From Pseudomonadota bacterium (GTDB lineage: Bacteria > Pseudomonadota > Gammaproteobacteria > Acidiferrobacterales > Acidiferrobacteraceae): a stretch of 64,000 nucleotides of DNA. The stretch covers positions 1 to 64,000 of the forward strand of contig JAKBUS010000004.1 in NCBI GenBank assembly GCA_021841585.1. The letters run 5' to 3'. Of the stretch, positions 7,337 to 22,775 are shown piece after piece (position 1 is the stretch's first letter; the number at the start of each line of letters is the position of its first letter). Under the pieces are notes generated by a model. That model ran no database searches. It had not been told where the DNA came from and saw nothing but the letters and a program-made list of their open reading frames with translations. Both the position numbers and the translations under genes were made by a program.

Positions 7337-8188
7337 AATGGATTCTGGGCGTGGGTGGAAGGTCCCGTAGAGCAGGCAGAACCGACGGTAGCCGTGAGCC
7401 TACCCAAAATGGGCGTGGGCGTATACGACGGCTCAGGGTCACTTCAGGGCGCTTCATTTCTAATGGACATCGCCGCAATCGAAGGGCGCGTGGGCGGCCA
7501 CGAGCACCGGTGCGCGCGGCAAGAGCCGGGTCAGCTAAAGCGGCGTCGTTTTCATCGGGGGCAAGCGGCGAGGTAAGCCCCTGATCGCGGGCAGCCGCCG
7601 GGTATTCGCCGACCACCCCTGGGATGGCTGCAAGGCCCAGGCAATCTGACACTGACTCAAGCGCGGCCCATGAGAGGCGCAACATGTCACGGACGAAACG
7701 CATGGGTAGACCCCCCTGTCGGCATGTTTGCTCCGGACAAACACCAGGAGATCAGTCCATTAGAAGGGAAAATCCAGCGCTTTACGCCGTCGTTCCGGTG
7801 TCGTGATCACCGATTTCGGCGCGTGGCCGCAAAGTGATCACGGCCGGCCAGAATGGGTGATCACGAGAGGCCAGAAAACGCACTGGCGATCCGGGGCGTA
7901 CCGCATCAACTTTTTCATCGCCCCGCCATGCCTTCCAGACTCAAGGCTTGCCCCAAAGCCGGATCGGACATGCCGCACCTACTTGCAATAGCGAGCCCTG
8001 TTACGCCATGAGCCACACCTTGTGCCCTGCCCTGATTGTTTGCCTGCCTTGTGAATCGCTGGATGGCCTTCCTCACATTTAAGGACCCGGGGAGATGAAT
8101 GGCGCGGTCTCCGGCTGAAAGAAGCGCGTCCAGACCTTGACACTCGCGACGGTATTCGCCATTCTCGGGCGATTCTGAACGGACACGC
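7337..8188. other. gene-free region upstream of lgt
   Basis: About 850 bp without a credible protein gene. It includes the IS-end-like relic at 7747-7883. The remainder contains only short high-GC open frames that look like shadows. The promoter of lgt should lie in the last 100-200 bp, but I see no clear consensus. Confidence 0.5.
7747..7883. repeat. IS21-type end relic, copy A
   Basis: This stretch resembles the one at 20205-20365. Shared blocks are aaaatccagcgctt, cgtgatcaccgatt and cacgagaggccagaaaacgc, in the same order and orientation. Several GTGATCAC-like words in tandem are a feature I associate with the multi-repeat ends of IS21-family elements. No transposase gene is present, so this would be a decayed or solo end. 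The family assignment comes from memory of such ends and is not proven. Confidence 0.55.
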
Positions 8189-14190: not shown

Positions 14191-16305
14191 TCATGACACG
14201 GCGGCTGTGAACCCCATGCCACGGCCGTAAGCGCGGCCACGGCCGCGCCATGCCGCGTGGATGGCCTTCACAAGACCGGTGGGGGTCCAGGACTCCTCGA
14301 GACGCAGACCCTGGAGGACGGCAGCGACATCGCCCACGGTCAGGCCCTCGCATTGATCCAGAAGGCGCATCTCCGGCAGCGGCAGTCCCGCCGTCATCCC
14401 ATGATCGGCGAGGATGTGCGCCACGAGCGCGTGCCGCTGCTCGCGGGCGAGCGGATGAAACGTGACGATGCGATCGAAACGACGGAAGGCGGCCTCGTCG
14501 AGATCGTCGCAGGCATTGGTGGTGGCGATAAAGACCCCCTCGAAACACTCCATCTGCGTCAGCATCTCGTTGACCTGCGTCACCTCCCAGTGGTGGCGCG
14601 CCCAGGCACGGCTGCGCAAGAAGGAATCGCATTCATCCAGCAACAACACCGCGCCCTGCGCACGGGCGCGATCAAACATCTCGGCCATGCGCCGTTCGGA
14701 CATACCCAGATAGGGATCCAGCAGATCCGAGGCCCGATAGGCGAGCAGCGGCCGCCCCAGGGTCTCGGCCAGATGCCGCGCCCACGCGCTCTTTCCGGTA
14801 CCAGGCGCCCCCGCGCACAAGACCCGGGCGCATCCCCGGCGGCCGACGCCGGCAGCCAGGGCCGTCAGATCACAGTCGGCATTCACGAACGCCGTTTCAT
14901 AGCCGAGCCACGCGCCCTCTCGGTCTGGCAATGCCGCGTGGCCTAGCGCCGCCAAAAGCCCATTCAACACCCGCCCGCAATACTCGGCGCGGGCCTCGGC
15001 ATCATCGATGGCCGCAAGCCCCGTGGTACGGGCGGCCTGCGCAAGCAGACCGGGGACCAGGCGCTCGTGGCGCGCGATGCGGCCGGCCAGCGGATGGCCA
15101 GCCAGGCCCAGGGGCGCCAGATATTCAGCGGCAAGGCGCGCGCGGACCGCCATCGGCGGCGGCGGGATCTCGCAAGCCAGACTAAAGCGTCGCAGCAGCG
15201 CCGGATCGATATCATCGATCTTGTTGCCGATCCAGATCACGGGGCTTGCCGTTTGCTCTAGGAGATCAATCGAAAAGCCCTTGCCGACACCGACCCGATC
15301 GGTCATTCCGGGGAATGCGTATTCCTCCCGAAAATAGTCCTCGACCTCATCGAACAACACGACCGCCCGCTGGCCGTGGGCGGCGAGTTGCGTCACCAGC
15401 CGCAACGCCCGCGCCCGCCCTTGAGGCGCCAGGGTATCGCCATGGGCATTGGTGACGGCTACCTCGAGAAGGCGCATGCCCAGATCGGCCGCAAGCGCCC
15501 GCGCCAAGGCGGTCTTACCGGTACCTGGGGGCCCATAAAACAGGACATTCACGCCACGCTCGCCATGAGTGGCGCCCTTTAGGAGCGGCCCTGCCAGCGT
15601 AAGCACATGGGCGAGGTGAGCGAAGTCGGCCACGGCCCGCGGCGGCTCTCCGCCGGTCTTCAGGTAAGAGGCGAGCAGCGTTGCCGCTGATAGGTTCGGT
15701 TCGAGCAGGCGCGCCAGCAGGTCCGGGGCGGTCTCCAGCCAATCATCCAGGTCGCTCCCGTAACCCGGGGTCTCCACGGTCACGAGACCGACGGCCACGA
15801 GCACGGACCCGCGCGCCAGCACCGCCGCCACCTCCGACTCCGTCACCCCGAGGCAAACGGCGGTCAGCGCGATCAACTCGGCGCGGCTCCGCACCTTGCT
15901 CATGTGCTCAAGGCCCTGCCGAAAGAGCCCAGGGGCCTTGGCGAGCGCGGCAAAGAGCAGGACCTCCTGCTCGATGGCGTTCAAGTGAATTTCGGCGCTC
16001 AAGGTTTGCACGCCGGGCAGGCCGGCGAGTGCCGTCTTTTCGGCGGCCTGCAAGGCGGCCCGCATGGCCGCCAGGATGCCCCGCCGGGAGGCATCGCGGG
16101 AGAGAGTCCCAAGACCCAGCAGCCGCCGCATCTGAAACGCCTCGGCCTCCTCGTGTTCCTCATCACCCTCGTCTAGACGCAACGACCGCCAGCCTTCGAT
16201 CTTCAGCAGCCCGCGCAAAAGCCACAGGCGCATGCGCGCCTCCAGGGCCGGCCACTGGCCATAACCGGTATTGCGCCGCAACCCGCGCGCAACGACTTTT
16301 TTCAT
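14191..16305 (-). CDS. double AAA+ ATPase
   Basis: A 704-residue protein with two AAA+ modules after a 240-residue helical N-terminal region. Module 1 has Walker A GPPGTGKTALA, Walker B VVLFDEVEDYF, a sensor asparagine in WIGNKID and an arginine finger in LLRRFS. Module 2 has Walker A GAPGTGKSAWA, Walker B VLLLDECDSFL, sensor ATTNACDDLD and FRRFDRI. Both ATPase sites look intact, so it should work as a ring-shaped remodeller of the Cdc48/ClpA broad type, though the N-domain matches no adaptor domain I recognise. I chose ATG 16305, with GGTGA before it, over TTG 16320. No protease partner is next to it. Confidence 0.82.
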   Translation of the reverse strand: MKKVVARGLRRNTGYGQWPALEARMRLWLLRGLLKIEGWRSLRLDEGDEEHEEAEAFQMRRLLGLGTLSRDASRRGILAAMRAALQAAEKTALAGLPGVQTLSAEIHLNAIEQEVLLFAALAKAPGLFRQGLEHMSKVRSRAELIALTAVCLGVTESEVAAVLARGSVLVAVGLVTVETPGYGSDLDDWLETAPDLLARLLEPNLSAATLLASYLKTGGEPPRAVADFAHLAHVLTLAGPLLKGATHGERGVNVLFYGPPGTGKTALARALAADLGMRLLEVAVTNAHGDTLAPQGRARALRLVTQLAAHGQRAVVLFDEVEDYFREEYAFPGMTDRVGVGKGFSIDLLEQTASPVIWIGNKIDDIDPALLRRFSLACEIPPPPMAVRARLAAEYLAPLGLAGHPLAGRIARHERLVPGLLAQAARTTGLAAIDDAEARAEYCGRVLNGLLAALGHAALPDREGAWLGYETAFVNADCDLTALAAGVGRRGCARVLCAGAPGTGKSAWARHLAETLGRPLLAYRASDLLDPYLGMSERRMAEMFDRARAQGAVLLLDECDSFLRSRAWARHHWEVTQVNEMLTQMECFEGVFIATTNACDDLDEAAFRRFDRIVTFHPLAREQRHALVAHILADHGMTAGLPLPEMRLLDQCEGLTVGDVAAVLQGLRLEESWTPTGLVKAIHAAWRGRGRAYGRGMGFTAAVS

Positions 16306-17356
16306 GATATTCACCGTCAAGACAACGAACTTACGACACCGCTCATCATGCGCCGCGCTTGCCTCATTTCCTGTCGCACCGCGTCCCGTCTGAACTCAGA
16401 CAGCCATGACCTCCCCCGATCAGGCCATGACCCAGACCCCTTTGAGCCCAAGTTTGAGACCGGCGGCCCAATCTCGCATCCCCCGCGCCCCGGATCGCCA
16501 CATGGGCCTACCGCGGTCACCGCTCGCGCGATTCGCGGATCGCGCTAGGGCCACTGGGTATTTATGGGACGCCGGCTTGTGGCCCCACCATGGCGCATCA
16601 CCGCTTACGCTCGCGGCCGCACATCACTTTGTGATGAGCCTCATCCCAAATGCACGGATGACCCTGCCACGGCGGAGGCGCTATTAGAGCGCCTTTTCTA
16701 TCACGAATCTTTGATAATACTCAGTCATTCATAGCGATATGATAATATTCCCGCAATTATTGCGTCCGCTTACCTCATTCAGAACCTACGGACATGGGCC
16801 TTACCGGTCACGTGTCATTTCTTCAAAGAACACCTCACAAGCCGCGACACAGACACATTCTCTGGTCAGCACGCGGATGCGCCATTCCGCGGAACCTGCC
16901 ACGCATGCCTGCCGTGCCATTTCGGCAGATGCCATCGCAAAGATTTTGTCTCCTTTCGGATACAAAATACCTGGAAATTTCCCAGCATTACATCCTTATG
17001 CCCGCGCACCCTTGCCTTGTGCACGGCCAATACAGGACCCTTATCACAACATGGCCTGCGAATGCCCTATCATGCTGCTTGCACCGGTATCTTTGCTGCA
17101 ATCATTTGGTATCAAGAATATTCAGGAACTTGTCCCGATCATTCGCACACATGAGACACGACGGGCATCGCGTACAGGACAGTGAGTCGCCACCCTTTGC
17201 GCCACCACCATGCAGGATAGGTGCGCGGCGCTTGACGGGGATCGTAATTGCGCCCGCGCGGGCGACAGGCCGGGACGAGAAATATGAATGCTCGCCCTCA
17301 CCCCGCATGGACCCGCATAAGCGGCATGCGCGCCGCGCGGCAACCAGGAGAATCCT
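16306..17356. other. intergenic region at the left edge of the accessory stretch
   Basis: About 1.05 kb with no convincing gene. The ORFs 16739..17185 and 16794..17531 overlap each other in different frames, lack a ribosome site and show no domain-like pattern. Composition drops toward AT around 16690-16780. No tRNA or terminator is evident. Confidence 0.45.
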
Positions 17357-17932
17357 ATGCATGTCCTTTACGGCATGGACTTTAGGTTCAACCGCGGCGC
17401 TCATGGTGAGGGATTTGAAAGTTTCCAGATTACTGCCCGCCCGGACCCGGGACACCCCACGTCGTTGCGTGACACCTTGGGGCATATCGAGCGAATCATC
17501 GATACCGTGGTACAAGGGGGCGCGCGCATAGACGTCCCCGACGGGGGCTCTTGCGCCATCATCGAGCTTAGCAAGATCTCCGTGTACAACGAGGCCTTTT
17601 CGAAGATCGGGGGCGGGTTTGACTATAGAGGCAAGTATCGGCCGGCCTCCGGCGAGCGCTCGGTGCAGTACCTCACCGCTAGCGTCCGCGGCATAGTCCG
17701 GCGCCTTTTCAACGGCACGATAGACGCCCGCGTCACCTCTTTCCTGTCAGCGGGACCGATCATCAATCTGGCTCTTTTCGATCGGATCCTGGCGGACCGG
17801 AAATTCCGCGCGAGCGACGAGGCGCAAGAGGTTCTGGCGCGCATTGCCACTCTACGCGCCGGGCGGCGTTCCGCCGATCTTGACGAATGGGTGGCGCTTC
17901 TGGGCCGGAAAGATTCGGCAAGGCCGGCATGA
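17357..17932 (+). CDS. orphan protein of unknown function
   Basis: A 191-residue protein with CAGGAGAATCCT before the ATG, a plausible ribosome site. It begins MHVLYGMDFRFNRGAHGEGFESFQITARP and has balanced composition with mixed helix and strand, and no signal peptide or membrane segment, so it looks like a soluble cytoplasmic protein. Codon use is like that of the surrounding genes. I recognise no family. Neighbours on both sides are long gene-free stretches, so context gives no help beyond its place in the accessory region. Confidence 0.6.
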   Translation: MHVLYGMDFRFNRGAHGEGFESFQITARPDPGHPTSLRDTLGHIERIIDTVVQGGARIDVPDGGSCAIIELSKISVYNEAFSKIGGGFDYRGKYRPASGERSVQYLTASVRGIVRRLFNGTIDARVTSFLSAGPIINLALFDRILADRKFRASDEAQEVLARIATLRAGRRSADLDEWVALLGRKDSARPA

Positions 17933-18389
17933 CGGCCGGGCGGGAATCCGTATCGAATTTCGCGCATGCCTTAATTGCGATTTATTGACGACTGTAAAGG
18001 GCCATCGCGATCCCCGCCGCGAGATGGCGCCCATACACGAGGTTTCCACCTCATTTGGGCGCGGCGGCGGCGGTCTTCGGTCCCAGCCATGAGCCTAAAC
18101 GGCCTTGATGGCCGCGGTCGTGCCCTCATATGGCGTGCGGATAGCTGGGTCCGCCTCGCCTCGAAGGCGACGCCTTATCGCCGTGCCATAAAAACCCGAC
18201 CCTGTCTGGCCCGATGGGCCCATGAGCCGGGGCCCTGTTATGGCATGAGGGCGCGCTATGGATATTGGAACACCGGATGGGCGCGCATTGAGGGCATGAC
18301 ACAAAAGGGCCCGCCTGGGGCGTGCGACCCGGATTGGCGGCTTGCGCGCGGGTCAAAGGCCAAAACGAAGACCCCGCTCCAAATCAATA
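17933..18389. other. gap with no recognisable gene
   Basis: About 460 bp between the orphan gene and the first hipA. Several short open frames overlap here in all directions and none stands out. Confidence 0.4.
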
Positions 18390-19706
18390 TCAAACGGCCA
18401 GGCGGGCGCGTATCTCGTCTGCCTGGCTTCTGATGACGGCTGCAGGCCCCATAAGCGCGGTAAAGGCGTATGGATTGAGAAATTGTCGGCCCCAAAAAAG
18501 ATTCCGATCCGCCTCCGTCAGCGCCGCTTCCTCACAAACACTCCGCCAGTTATCCGCAATCCCGTCGAGTTGCCCTTTGACGAGAGTGATGGCCTCGGTC
18601 TCGCTAAGCTGAAAATGATGCGCCCCCTCAAGACAGGAGGCGATCCGGCTCATGCGGTTCTTGCCGTTGATCAGCATCGCCTGGGTCGCCTCTTGTCCGC
18701 TCCTGATCTGAGGACAAATGTCGTAGGCGGGCGTCAAGCTAAGGGCGTCCCCATCCCAGAACGCGGCATGGTTCCTGGCATGATCGTCGGTGTTCCCGCA
18801 AAGGATATTGAAGACCATACGCGCGAATAATTCGCGCAGTGTTTCAGAGGGCCTTGTGAAGCGGTGGCGGACCCTTTCGGCAAGATCCTCGTAGCTTGCA
18901 TAGCGGGCCATCATTTCATCGAGGCCCAGAATGGTCAGCGCTGACACCAACGGCTTGCGGCGCCAGCCATCATCCGCTCGTATCCGATCAAAGCGCCCGA
19001 CTATCAGCGCATCTTTCCCAGAAGCGCGGACGAGCGAGACGTCCGCCGCATTGATCCCGCACAGACGAGCAAGGCGCATGGCAACGAATTCCCCTTTTAC
19101 GACGCTAAAGAGGTCGCTAGACGAGGCAAACTTCGCGATATACTTCGTCGCGCCGTCTTCGATCAGCGCCTTTGGCCTGGCCCCCCCGATTGAACTACCG
19201 TGGTAGAGGGCCTGATCCAACTCGGGCGAAAGTGGGGTGCCCCGCTCGACCCGCTCAGCCGACTGGATCAACTCTTCGAGAGTGGCGTTGAGCGGCGCGC
19301 GCGGCTGGTAATTGGTGGGCGAAAGCTGAAAATCGAGCGCCCCAATGCGATCCGAGCCTGATTCGAGCAGATAGGTCAGCTCGGAAAGGTCTGGCTCGGT
19401 AACCTCGTTAGCCTTGGCGCCAAACTTGCGATTGAGGATAACGCGCCGTCCCCAGGCGTCCGGGGACGCATCGCGAATGCAACCGGGCATGGTCAGGCCG
19501 GCAAGGAGCGGCAATTCACCGGCCTCTAGGGGCAGCTCCGGCAGATAAAGCGGGATCGCATCGCGCCGCTCGCGATAGGTTCTGCCATAATTGAAAGCGA
19601 CAAGCCCGTCATGAGCATGGAGCCGCCCCGCCACAACCGGCGTCGTGGCATTCGGCAACCAGGCCCACACATACGCCTCATGGTATTTTGGCGCCTCAGA
19701 AGTCAT
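18390..19706 (-). CDS. hipA: HipA-family serine/threonine kinase toxin (module 1)
   Basis: A 438-residue HipA-type kinase, close to the E. coli HipA length. The N-terminal subdomain includes FNYGRTYRERRDAIPLYLPELPL and AGLTMPGCIRDASPDAWGRRV. The phosphate-binding loop is GSSIGGARPKALI, followed by TKYIAKF; the catalytic loop is GNTDDHARNHA and the metal-binding motif is AYDICPQ, so the kinase appears intact. HipA toxins phosphorylate aminoacyl-tRNA synthetases such as GltX and slow growth; the target here is unknown. ATG 19706 has AAGAAGG 6 bases before it and overlaps the antitoxin end by 11 bp, as is usual for these pairs. It differs strongly from the second HipA at 20968. Confidence 0.88.
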   Translation of the reverse strand: MTSEAPKYHEAYVWAWLPNATTPVVAGRLHAHDGLVAFNYGRTYRERRDAIPLYLPELPLEAGELPLLAGLTMPGCIRDASPDAWGRRVILNRKFGAKANEVTEPDLSELTYLLESGSDRIGALDFQLSPTNYQPRAPLNATLEELIQSAERVERGTPLSPELDQALYHGSSIGGARPKALIEDGATKYIAKFASSSDLFSVVKGEFVAMRLARLCGINAADVSLVRASGKDALIVGRFDRIRADDGWRRKPLVSALTILGLDEMMARYASYEDLAERVRHRFTRPSETLRELFARMVFNILCGNTDDHARNHAAFWDGDALSLTPAYDICPQIRSGQEATQAMLINGKNRMSRIASCLEGAHHFQLSETEAITLVKGQLDGIADNWRSVCEEAALTEADRNLFWGRQFLNPYAFTALMGPAAVIRSQADEIRARLAV

Positions 19707-20034
19707 CGACGACCTTCTTGCCGGCCTTGTAGACATGCTTGGGCAATAGCGCTATACGGTCGTCCGTACGCTCGGAAAGCCCCGCGACACCCTTCTCGTC
19801 TGCGTCAAACAGCTTCACGCCCACAACGGCGGCCGCTTCGAACATCAGTCCGATTTCGACCTTAGGGTCACCCTTTTCGATGCGCTGCAAGGTGCTCCGC
19901 GAGATACCGACCCGCGCCGCCAATTCCGGCGTCGTTAACCTTCGTTGCATGCGCCCAAGCCGAATCATTTTCCCGAACAGGGAAAGCCCTTCGAGCGCAT
20001 AGCGTGAGTATGTTCGTTGCTGATTAGCAGCCAT
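19696..20034 (-). CDS. hipB: HipB-type antitoxin, Xre-family regulator (module 1)
   Basis: A 112-residue protein with a helix-turn-helix at about residues 25-70: RLGRMQRRLTTPELAARVGISRSTLQRIEKGDP. The C-terminal tail contains FDADEKGVAGLSERTDDRIALLPKHV, as often seen in antitoxins paired with HipA. I chose ATG 20034 (MAANQQ) over the longer TTG frame. It is the first gene of a hipB-hipA operon read leftwards and should repress its own promoter by binding the repeats at 20044-20091. Confidence 0.85.
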   Translation of the reverse strand: MAANQQRTYSRYALEGLSLFGKMIRLGRMQRRLTTPELAARVGISRSTLQRIEKGDPKVEIGLMFEAAAVVGVKLFDADEKGVAGLSERTDDRIALLPKHVYKAGKKVVDDF

Positions 20035-20043
20035 ATCACAACC

Positions 20044-20091
20044 TAATATGCCCCATATATCCACCAAATCGACATAATATGGCCTATATAC
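20044..20091 (-). promoter_or_regulatory. putative HipB operator repeats for module 1
   Basis: Two similar AT-rich words, taatatgccccatatat at 20044-20060 and taatatggcctatatac at 20075-20091, are repeated with a 31-bp period, about three helical turns, just upstream of the hipB start. Each is an imperfect palindrome. They are good candidates for autoregulatory binding sites; no strong promoter consensus is visible on the minus strand. Confidence 0.5.
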
Positions 20092-20204
20092 GAGTCACAT
20101 TAACGGAATGGACCTAAGTAATCAATTACTGACTCGTACAGGGATCAGATCGCTATGATTCGCGTCGTATAGGGGGATTCATGGCGGTCAACACGAAAAA
20201 AGCC

Positions 20205-20365
20205 GGAGGATCAGCCAGTTAGAAGTGAAAATCCAGCGCTTCACGCCATTGTTCTGGTCTCGTGATCACCGATTCTGGCGCACGGACCCGAAATGATCAC
20301 GATCGATCAGAATCCGTGATCACCATCAATCAGAATGAGTTATCACGAGAGGCCAGAAAACGCAC
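20205..20365. repeat. IS21-type end relic, copy B
   Basis: Similar to 7747-7883 in sequence and orientation, but with an extra repeat. GTGATCAC-like words recur at 20261, 20293, 20316 and, degenerate, at 20341. No transposase is encoded nearby. It lies in the roughly 640-bp gap between the two divergent hipBA modules; the rest of that gap holds no gene that I can support. Confidence 0.55.
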
Positions 20366-20609
20366 CAGTCGGGGATCGCCGGGCCAAAGGATCAAGGCGT
20401 GCCATGATGGCGCCATACTCCGGACTCAGTGAGGCATTGGGCGGTGTCCGCAAAAAGGTCCTAGCCGACCGTGTTTTGAATAAATGGGGCGGAACGCTTG
20501 GGCGAAATACGCCCGGAGGCTCCATCGGATACTGTGACTACGCTCACTTGCTTTATTGTTTTCTTTTTTAAGAAATATTCTTGGCAATCAATGCTTCTTT
20601 CATAATATT

Positions 20610-20673
20610 TCTCCTATGCAAGAAAGTATTGACAAACTGCTAACAGTCGCCTGATACTTTCTCGTACAGGAGA
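20610..20673 (+). promoter_or_regulatory. hipBA module 2 promoter flanked by inverted operator arms
   Basis: TCTCCTATGCAAGAAAGTA (20610-20628) and TACTTTCTCGTACAGGAGA (20655-20673) are inverted copies matching at 16 of 19 positions. Between them lies a consensus -35 TTGACA (20629-20634); the -10 GATACT (20653-20658, 4 of 6) at 18-bp spacing overlaps the right arm, which also contains the ribosome site. A repressor bound to both arms would occlude the promoter, which fits autoregulation by the HipB-like protein. Confidence 0.75.
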
Positions 20674-20677
20674 AATT

Positions 20678-20971
20678 ATGGCTCGCACGATCACGCCAAC
20701 CCCGTTGCCAAAAAAACCGACAATTGCAAGCGTCGCGGAATTTGGTGCCTTCGTCCGTAGCCTGCGCACCCGGCACGGTCTTCGTATTGATGACGCCGCG
20801 GCCCTCTGCGGCGTCTCGGTCGCGTTGCTGTCGGCGCTGGAGAACGGTAAACCGCGTGGCGTAGGCCTGGATAAGGCGTTGCGGATCGCCGACCAACTGG
20901 GGCTGGCACTGCTTGCCGTTCCGCAAACGACCCTGCGCGAGACATTGGCCTGCTTGGAGCATAAGGAATGA
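20678..20971 (+). CDS. hipB: HipB-type antitoxin, Xre-family regulator (module 2)
   Basis: A 97-residue protein with AGGAGA 6 bases before the ATG. Residues 20-75 form an Xre-type helix-turn-helix: FGAFVRSLRTRHGLRIDDAA, ALCGVSVALLSALENGKP. The DNA just upstream carries a strong inverted repeat around the promoter, as expected for an autoregulated antitoxin. The last codons overlap the toxin start as ATGA. It shares no obvious close similarity with the other antitoxin at 19696-20034. Confidence 0.9.
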   Translation: MARTITPTPLPKKPTIASVAEFGAFVRSLRTRHGLRIDDAAALCGVSVALLSALENGKPRGVGLDKALRIADQLGLALLAVPQTTLRETLACLEHKE

Positions 20972-22293
20972 CGAGCCATCGTCTCGCTGCCTGGGTAGAC
21001 GGCCGACGGATGGGAACCCTCATCTACCATGACGACACTGGGCGATTCGCTTTTGACTATGCCCTCGAGTGGGTGACCTTTCGATCGGCGTTTCCCCTCT
21101 CCCCCGCCCTCCCTCTTGAGAGTCCCAAGCCAGTTATCGACGAACACCATTCCGTTAGCGTGCGCCGTTTCTTTGAAAACCTTCTGCCGGAAGGCAAAGC
21201 GCTGGACGACGCCGTCGCTGCACACCGGCTCTCCAAGGCCAACCTCTACGGCCTGCTGCTTGTTCTCGGCCGGGAAAGCACGGGTGCGGTGAGGCTGCTT
21301 CCGGAGGGCGTCCCGCCCGAACAGGTCCCCGATTCCAGGCGCGAGGTGACCTTAGAAGAGCTTGCCGAACGGATCCGCAGCCGCACCCATGAGCCCTTTA
21401 ACATTTGGGACGGACGGGCACGGATGTCGATTGCCGGATACCAGGATAAGCTCGCGGTCTATACGGACCGGAACCGCCTCTACCTGGTGGAGGGGCGGCT
21501 TGCCTCGACCCATATCCTCAAACCGGAGCCGTTAAGCCCAAACCTCCCCTTTCTTGTCGCCAACGAACACTTTTGTTTACGGCTGGCCGGAGCCCTCGGT
21601 CTCCCGGCCACCGGCGTTGCTATCTTGCGGGTACCCGAACCAGTCCTTGTGGTCGAACGCTTCGACCGCCAACGACGCGATGACGCAGTCCAACGCCTGC
21701 ATGTCATCGATGCCTGCCAAACGTTGGATCTGGCAACAAGCCACAAATACGAACGCAATTTCGGTAGTGGTCGGGACGTAGCGCACATCCGCGACGGGGT
21801 TGGCATCGAGCGGCTTTTTTCCATCGCCAATCTTGCCATCGCCGCCGCACCCATGCGCCTTGGTTTGCTGCGCTGGACTTTGGTCCAGTACCTTATCGGC
21901 AACTCGGACGCCCACGGAAAGAATGTCTCGTTCTTTGTCGAGCCCGGTGGCCTGCGTTTGGCGCCTTTGTATGATCTGGTCGCGGCCTGCGTCTATCCTA
22001 AGGTCGACCATGAACTGGCCATGGCGATAGGTGACGAATTCGATATCACCAAGGTGCGCGCCTACGACTGGGCCGAATTAGCGGCGCACTGCGGCCTGAT
22101 TCGCCGACTGCTCATTCGGGAGATGACCCGCATGGCTGGGCGTCTGCGCAAGGTCTTGCCCGAACTACAACGTTGGCCCGGCTACACTCAGGATGAACGA
22201 ACGATAATCGACCAGATTGCTCGATTCGCGCTTAGCCAGTCTGATCGCCTTCAAGTCGACGCCAAGTTGCTGCCCAAGGTTGTTCTCGACTGA
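20968..22293 (+). CDS. hipA: HipA-family serine/threonine kinase toxin (module 2)
   Basis: A 441-residue kinase whose ATG overlaps the antitoxin stop. The N-terminal subdomain has LEWVTFRSAFPLSPALPLE and FFENLLPEGKALD, standard for HipA. The phosphate loop region is MSIAGYQDKLAV, followed by THILKPEP; the catalytic loop is GNSDAHGKNVSFF and the metal-binding motif is PLYDLVAA, so all kinase elements are present. This layout is nearer to classical E. coli HipA than the module 1 protein is. Its target is unknown. Confidence 0.93.
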   Translation: MTSHRLAAWVDGRRMGTLIYHDDTGRFAFDYALEWVTFRSAFPLSPALPLESPKPVIDEHHSVSVRRFFENLLPEGKALDDAVAAHRLSKANLYGLLLVLGRESTGAVRLLPEGVPPEQVPDSRREVTLEELAERIRSRTHEPFNIWDGRARMSIAGYQDKLAVYTDRNRLYLVEGRLASTHILKPEPLSPNLPFLVANEHFCLRLAGALGLPATGVAILRVPEPVLVVERFDRQRRDDAVQRLHVIDACQTLDLATSHKYERNFGSGRDVAHIRDGVGIERLFSIANLAIAAAPMRLGLLRWTLVQYLIGNSDAHGKNVSFFVEPGGLRLAPLYDLVAACVYPKVDHELAMAIGDEFDITKVRAYDWAELAAHCGLIRRLLIREMTRMAGRLRKVLPELQRWPGYTQDERTIIDQIARFALSQSDRLQVDAKLLPKVVLD

Positions 22294-22699
22294 TGCCGTG
22301 TGCGACGACCGAGACATTCATCCCTATGGTGGCAGCACCGCAGCCCTTCTAAAGCGAGTTGCTCAGCTGCTGGGCGCCATGAGCGAAGGCCGCCGTCTTG
22401 TATTGACGCCGACCGAACAGAAGTTCACAGCGGGTGGGCCGGCCAATTTTCTCAATGTCTCCCGTCCGTCCTTGCCTTGCCTACGCGGCGAGGGTGTCGA
22501 TAAGCGCCATGGCGCGCGCTTGCGGCGACGACCGAATCGAAGCCGCTACAACGGCGCGCCTTGGATCTGATCGACCAGCTGGTGATGTAGTCAAAAAGCA
22601 GCCACCGGATTTCCGCAAAAAGGCTTGGATGCCAAGGGAAATCTCTTCGGGGCTAGCAGTTTCGGTATTCCCGACGGGTCTGCTACAGGCTGGATTTTA
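22294..22699. other. gap between hipA and tRNA-Thr
   Basis: About 400 bp with no convincing gene. If the neighbouring accessory stretch is an integrated element, a decayed integrase or attachment site would be expected here, but I cannot see an integrase fragment. Confidence 0.4.

Positions 22700-22775
<76 letters not shown>

Follow-up and report, generated by a model that had tools for sequence, protein, structure and literature searches.

Two distinct hipBA modules, probably acquired separately, at a putative tRNA-Thr(CGT) integration hotspot in an Acidiferrobacteraceae genome

Why do two hipBA toxin-antitoxin modules stand back to back in one genome, and do they act as a pair? The question is raised by a contig of an Acidiferrobacteraceae bacterium (GCA_021841585.1, JAKBUS010000004.1), of which we analysed the first 64,000 nucleotides (the window). 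A preliminary description of this DNA had pointed to two different hipBA modules in opposite orientations around an insertion sequence relic, and had suggested that two independent kinases imply different targets or cross-regulation. In our judgement the locus very probably holds two type II hipBA modules, each self-contained and acquired separately, that have accumulated in a tRNA-Thr(CGT) integration hotspot. The sequence itself shows the genes present, their separate phylogeny, the conservation of the active sites, purifying selection and the variable contents of the hotspot, on which this judgement rests.

The arrangement is as first described, by coordinates, domain matches and repeats alike. 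Two complete, divergent modules fill positions 18390-22293, limits that are exactly the ends of hipA1 and hipA2. The first occupies 18390-20034 on the minus strand and comprises hipB1 (19696-20034), which encodes a helix-turn-helix (HTH) antitoxin/repressor of 112 aa matching HTH_31, HTH_3 and couple_hipB, and hipA1 (18390-19706), which encodes a HipA-family Ser/Thr kinase of 438 aa and probably starts at the ATG at 19706, overlapping the hipB1 stop, rather than at 19736; the two genes overlap by 11 nt. The second occupies 20678-22293 on the plus strand, where hipB2 (20678-20971; HTH antitoxin/repressor, 97 aa; HTH_31, 2.3e-10) and hipA2 (20968-22293; HipA-family Ser/Thr kinase, 441 aa) overlap in the sequence ATGA. 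Both antitoxins are Xre/Cro-type HTH proteins, each encoded upstream of its kinase in the same operon, and the divergent hipB1 and hipB2 promoters face each other across ~640 bp. In profile searches HipA_C matched HipA1 at 2.5e-49 and HipA2 at 1.9e-44, and Couple_hipA, the N-terminal HipA domain, matched them at 1.3e-5 (over the cut-off) and 1.9e-19 respectively; sequence alone is decisive for the family assignment. Throughout the whole assembly (2.57 Mb in 124 contigs), hipA1 and hipA2 are the only HipA_C genes found.

The two kinases are not close copies, as had been claimed, since they share 28% identity over 345 aligned columns (BLASTP) or 34% over 282 (local alignment), and the antitoxins likewise differ, their similarity being limited to 39 HTH residues at 33% identity. 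The conserved motifs are of different types, SIGGARPK and GNTDDHARN in HipA1, SIAGYQDK and GNSDAHGKN in HipA2. In a tree of 98 rows a branch with starred support has the GGARPK-DDHARN group on one side and HipA2 on the other; HipA2 lies near the HipA of Shewanella oneidensis (within a starred set of 12 rows) and with Escherichia coli HipA more distant; the tree, from which Caulobacter sequences were left out, is a quick one with long branches, and we place weight only on its deep split and near neighbours. On this same quick tree HipA2 shares a starred branch with S. oneidensis HipA and HipA1 falls outside that side; clade I of the published Hip Tree (1,239 sequences) takes in both E. coli and S. 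oneidensis HipA (PMC8262856). Separate deep branches, and nearest kin in different taxa, uphold the suggestion that the kinases are independent, and recent duplication is ruled out by the phylogeny.

Both kinases look intact. Aligned with E. coli HipA, both HipA1 and HipA2 retain the residues at S150, K181, D309, N314 and D332, which bears out the catalytic motifs recognised at first sight. At the hinge position (E234 in E. coli), 77 of the 89 members sampled from the HipA1 family carry Glu, and the window HipA1, alone among those sampled, carries Gly; the substitution might weaken HipA1. Comparison with a congener, G003, gave dN/dS of ~0.15 for hipA2 and ~0.21 for hipB2, and comparison of hipA1 with Roseococcus gave ~0.09, a long-branch average with saturated dS in which recent decay would not show. 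These ratios indicate purifying selection on both kinases.

The closest relatives of HipA1 are alphaproteobacterial (Roseococcus, 79%; Mesorhizobium, ~77%); a genome from a different genus of this family (G014) has a relative at 74%, and the best match in a class sample of 370 genomes is 65-67%. Kinases of this type are widespread, occurring in many proteobacterial genomes and matching 208 plasmid records, and viral contigs yielded two 64% matches for HipA1 and no relatives of HipA2. HipA2, by comparison, is 90% identical to a protein in one congener, G003, where the gene sits at the matching place, and at most 67% identical to anything elsewhere in the class sample. HipB2 has a 91% homologue in the same congener, and HipB1 homologues of 77-81% are encoded directly upstream of hipA1 relatives, a pattern which indicates that the cognate antitoxin travels with each kinase. 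Synonymous divergence from G003 is lower for hipA2 (dS 0.33) than for the neighbouring ThiO gene (0.61), and hipA2 may therefore have been exchanged between the two species, although one control gene is thin evidence. Of the two modules, hipBA2 is the one common to the window genome and a congener, and hipBA1, of an alphaproteobacterial type, probably arrived separately.

The setting offers an explanation for how such modules could come together. A tRNA-Thr(CGT) gene (22700-22775, minus strand) bounds the region; it and the ThiO gene beyond are conserved in the congeners examined, with variable DNA past the tRNA 3' end, and in several congeners the other side is bounded by an AAA+ gene (14191-16320), the DNA between differing from genome to genome. 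The islands of three relatives (G008, G011 and G001) contain partial copies of the tRNA 3' region, and those of G004, G011 and G001 contain phage-type integrase genes. In G003 the AAA+ gene is followed by a WYL-domain gene, hipBA2 and the contig end, the next contig starting exactly at tRNA-Thr, so that the link between hipBA2 and the tRNA spans a contig break. These comparisons point to the tRNA-Thr(CGT) site as a hotspot of integration within the genus; because neither an integrase nor an att copy of the tRNA end was found in the window's own region, we infer integration here from the relatives.

Several neighbouring features deserve mention. The AAA+ gene at the island edge encodes a double AAA+ ATPase that PADLOC matches to ATPases of the IetA type (6e-34), at most a candidate defence gene. 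Searches of Pfam, NCBIfam, PADLOC, PHROGs and plasmids gave no match to an open frame of 191 aa at 17357-17932, and a frame after hipA2 (22294-22570), by eye like a broken antitoxin-type HTH stretch, has none in Pfam or PHROGs. In a genome of another family (G275; locus L122, 371-9963), a HipA1-type module lies near a tRNA-Thr(CGT) and DrmB/DrmC-like defence genes.

The insertion sequence relic proposed between the modules is likewise real. It extends over about 20195-20375 and consists of 23-nt tandem repeats without a transposase; among outside sequences it best matches an IS21 element from Lichenicola, at the istA-side end (77% over 77 nt), and the ends of IS21 elements consist of multiple direct repeats (PMC10122671). 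Sibling copies occur at 7750-7883 of the window, on another contig of the same genome (C95, 41785-41836) and in G004, G011 and G001, and the relic is a remnant of mobile DNA that belongs to neither module. No transposase lies beside the copies at 7750-7883 and on C95, and the copies at 7750 and 20195 of the window and that in G004 have both boundaries in common, as in a small non-autonomous element.

Cross-regulation is the part of the preliminary description that operator prediction does not support. Palindromic operator models were built from the promoters of relatives and scored over 63,983 positions of the 64 kb; that for HipB1 used 82 sequences and excluded the window, that for HipB2 used only a few (4) and excluded G003 as well as the window, and in both cases the starting seeds were picked after the promoters were viewed. 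All three top sites of the HipB1 model across the 64 kb fall at the hipB1 promoter, as predicted operators TGGCCTATATACGAGTCA (20080-20097, rank 1), TGACTCGTACAGGGATCA (20130-20147, rank 2) and TGCCCCATATATCCACCA (20049-20066, rank 3). The top sites of the HipB2 model are, in the same way, all at the hipB2 promoter: TTTCTCCTATGCAAGAAA (20608-20625, rank 1), which adjoins a -35-like TTGACA at 20629-20634; TTTCTCGTACAGGAGAAA (20658-20675, rank 2), directly 3' of a -10-like TGATAC at 20652-20657; and the core TTTCTTTTTTAAGAAA (20558-20577), with ranks 3-4 in overlapping registers (20558/20560). Each module thus has strong, conserved predicted palindromes at its own promoter, whereas at the partner's promoter the best scores are background-like (rank 25 for the HipB1 model, rank 36 for the HipB2 model); earlier models with the window included had the same outcome. 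A repeat common to 20127-20142 and 20655-20670, which overlap a predicted HipB1 and a predicted HipB2 operator respectively, was considered as a route to cross-regulation and rejected, the spacer core being the same and the half-sites different. Each antitoxin therefore seems, on these predictions, to act at its own separate operator set.

These features have parallels in characterised systems. As in E. coli K-12, an HTH antitoxin precedes a HipA kinase with conserved catalytic residues and multiple operators are predicted, but identity to E. coli HipA is 31% for HipA1 and 36% for HipA2, and the predicted operator sequences differ from those of the E. coli hipBA promoter, which has four with the consensus TATCCN8GGATA (PMC3376134). 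The closest solved relative of HipA2 is the HipA of S. oneidensis MR-1 (structures 4pu3/4pu5; 4pu3, E 1.2e-79, 41% over 384 aa), with which it shares the N-terminal HipA domain, the active-site motifs and one supported tree branch, although identity is only ~41%. Caulobacter crescentus also carries several modules in one genome (hipBA1/2/3), and three operators each are reported for its hipBA1 and hipBA2 (PMC8545095), comparable to the triple operators predicted here. Those two modules have identical inverted repeats in their promoters and cross-neutralise at the protein level (PMC7029023); in the window, by contrast, the predicted operators of the two modules differ, a situation nearer that of the insulated Caulobacter hipBA3.

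In proposing how the modules work, we extrapolate from characterised HipA proteins. HipB1 and HipB2 would each most likely bind and repress their own promoter through their own three operators, and each would keep its partner kinase inactive. Once the antitoxin was lost, the kinase would be free to phosphorylate a target on which the cell depends, typically an aminoacyl-tRNA synthetase, and growth would stop. The target of E. coli HipA is GltX, the S. oneidensis MR-1 protein is listed without a known kinase target (PMC8262856), and the literature examined reports no target for any kinase that we could place in the HipA1-type group. Given their divergence, the supposition that HipA1 and HipA2 have different targets is plausible. 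Operator binding, toxicity, neutralisation and order of arrival, like these targets, are what we infer for the pair.

Does their proximity nevertheless reflect cooperation? The two modules might constitute a functional unit, their kinases acting on different targets and coupled through the antitoxins or the common 640-bp divergent promoter region. The facing promoters would permit this, the Caulobacter modules are capable of cross-talk at the protein level, and HipA-family pairs are somewhat commoner than chance: within 4 kb, ~0.6 would be expected among the surveyed genomes and two to three were seen (the window pair, another in G071 and perhaps a third in G004), and a second HipA-like gene lies within 5 kb in 3 of 80 HipA1-type loci (L199, L205 and L228). 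We nevertheless think it unlikely, as no cross operators are predicted, hipBA2 occurs without hipBA1 in G003, and the same two kinase families were not seen adjacent again in a survey of 78 relatives or in class-wide samples. That the pair is not seen elsewhere points to chance accretion, and the mild excess of HipA neighbours fits clustering in islands.

Nor do we give much credence to the view that one of the modules, hipBA1 more probably than hipBA2, has begun to lose its function and is a passenger in a decaying island. The DNA around the modules (16320-18390 and 22294-22700) contains no recognisable intact gene, and the hinge Gly unique to the window HipA1 would suit such a view; but the frames are open, the catalytic residues are all present, the top-scoring predicted operators are retained, and dN/dS against the nearest relative is low, albeit as an average blind to recent decay. 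Equally improbable, in our opinion, is that the modules, which are unrelated, have a divergent promoter region in common and would be insulated in regulation by their own triple operator sets, serve as a mutual addiction back-up and keep the island stable because their kinases hit different essential targets. Separate acquisition and accumulation in the hotspot remains our preferred reading, and in it the locus is a case of ordinary gene accumulation with no sign of the modules working together.

The locus is a clean natural case in which two HipA modules, unrelated and with distinct predicted operators, lie next to each other. As such, it would be useful for studying how insulation arises between related toxin-antitoxin systems.
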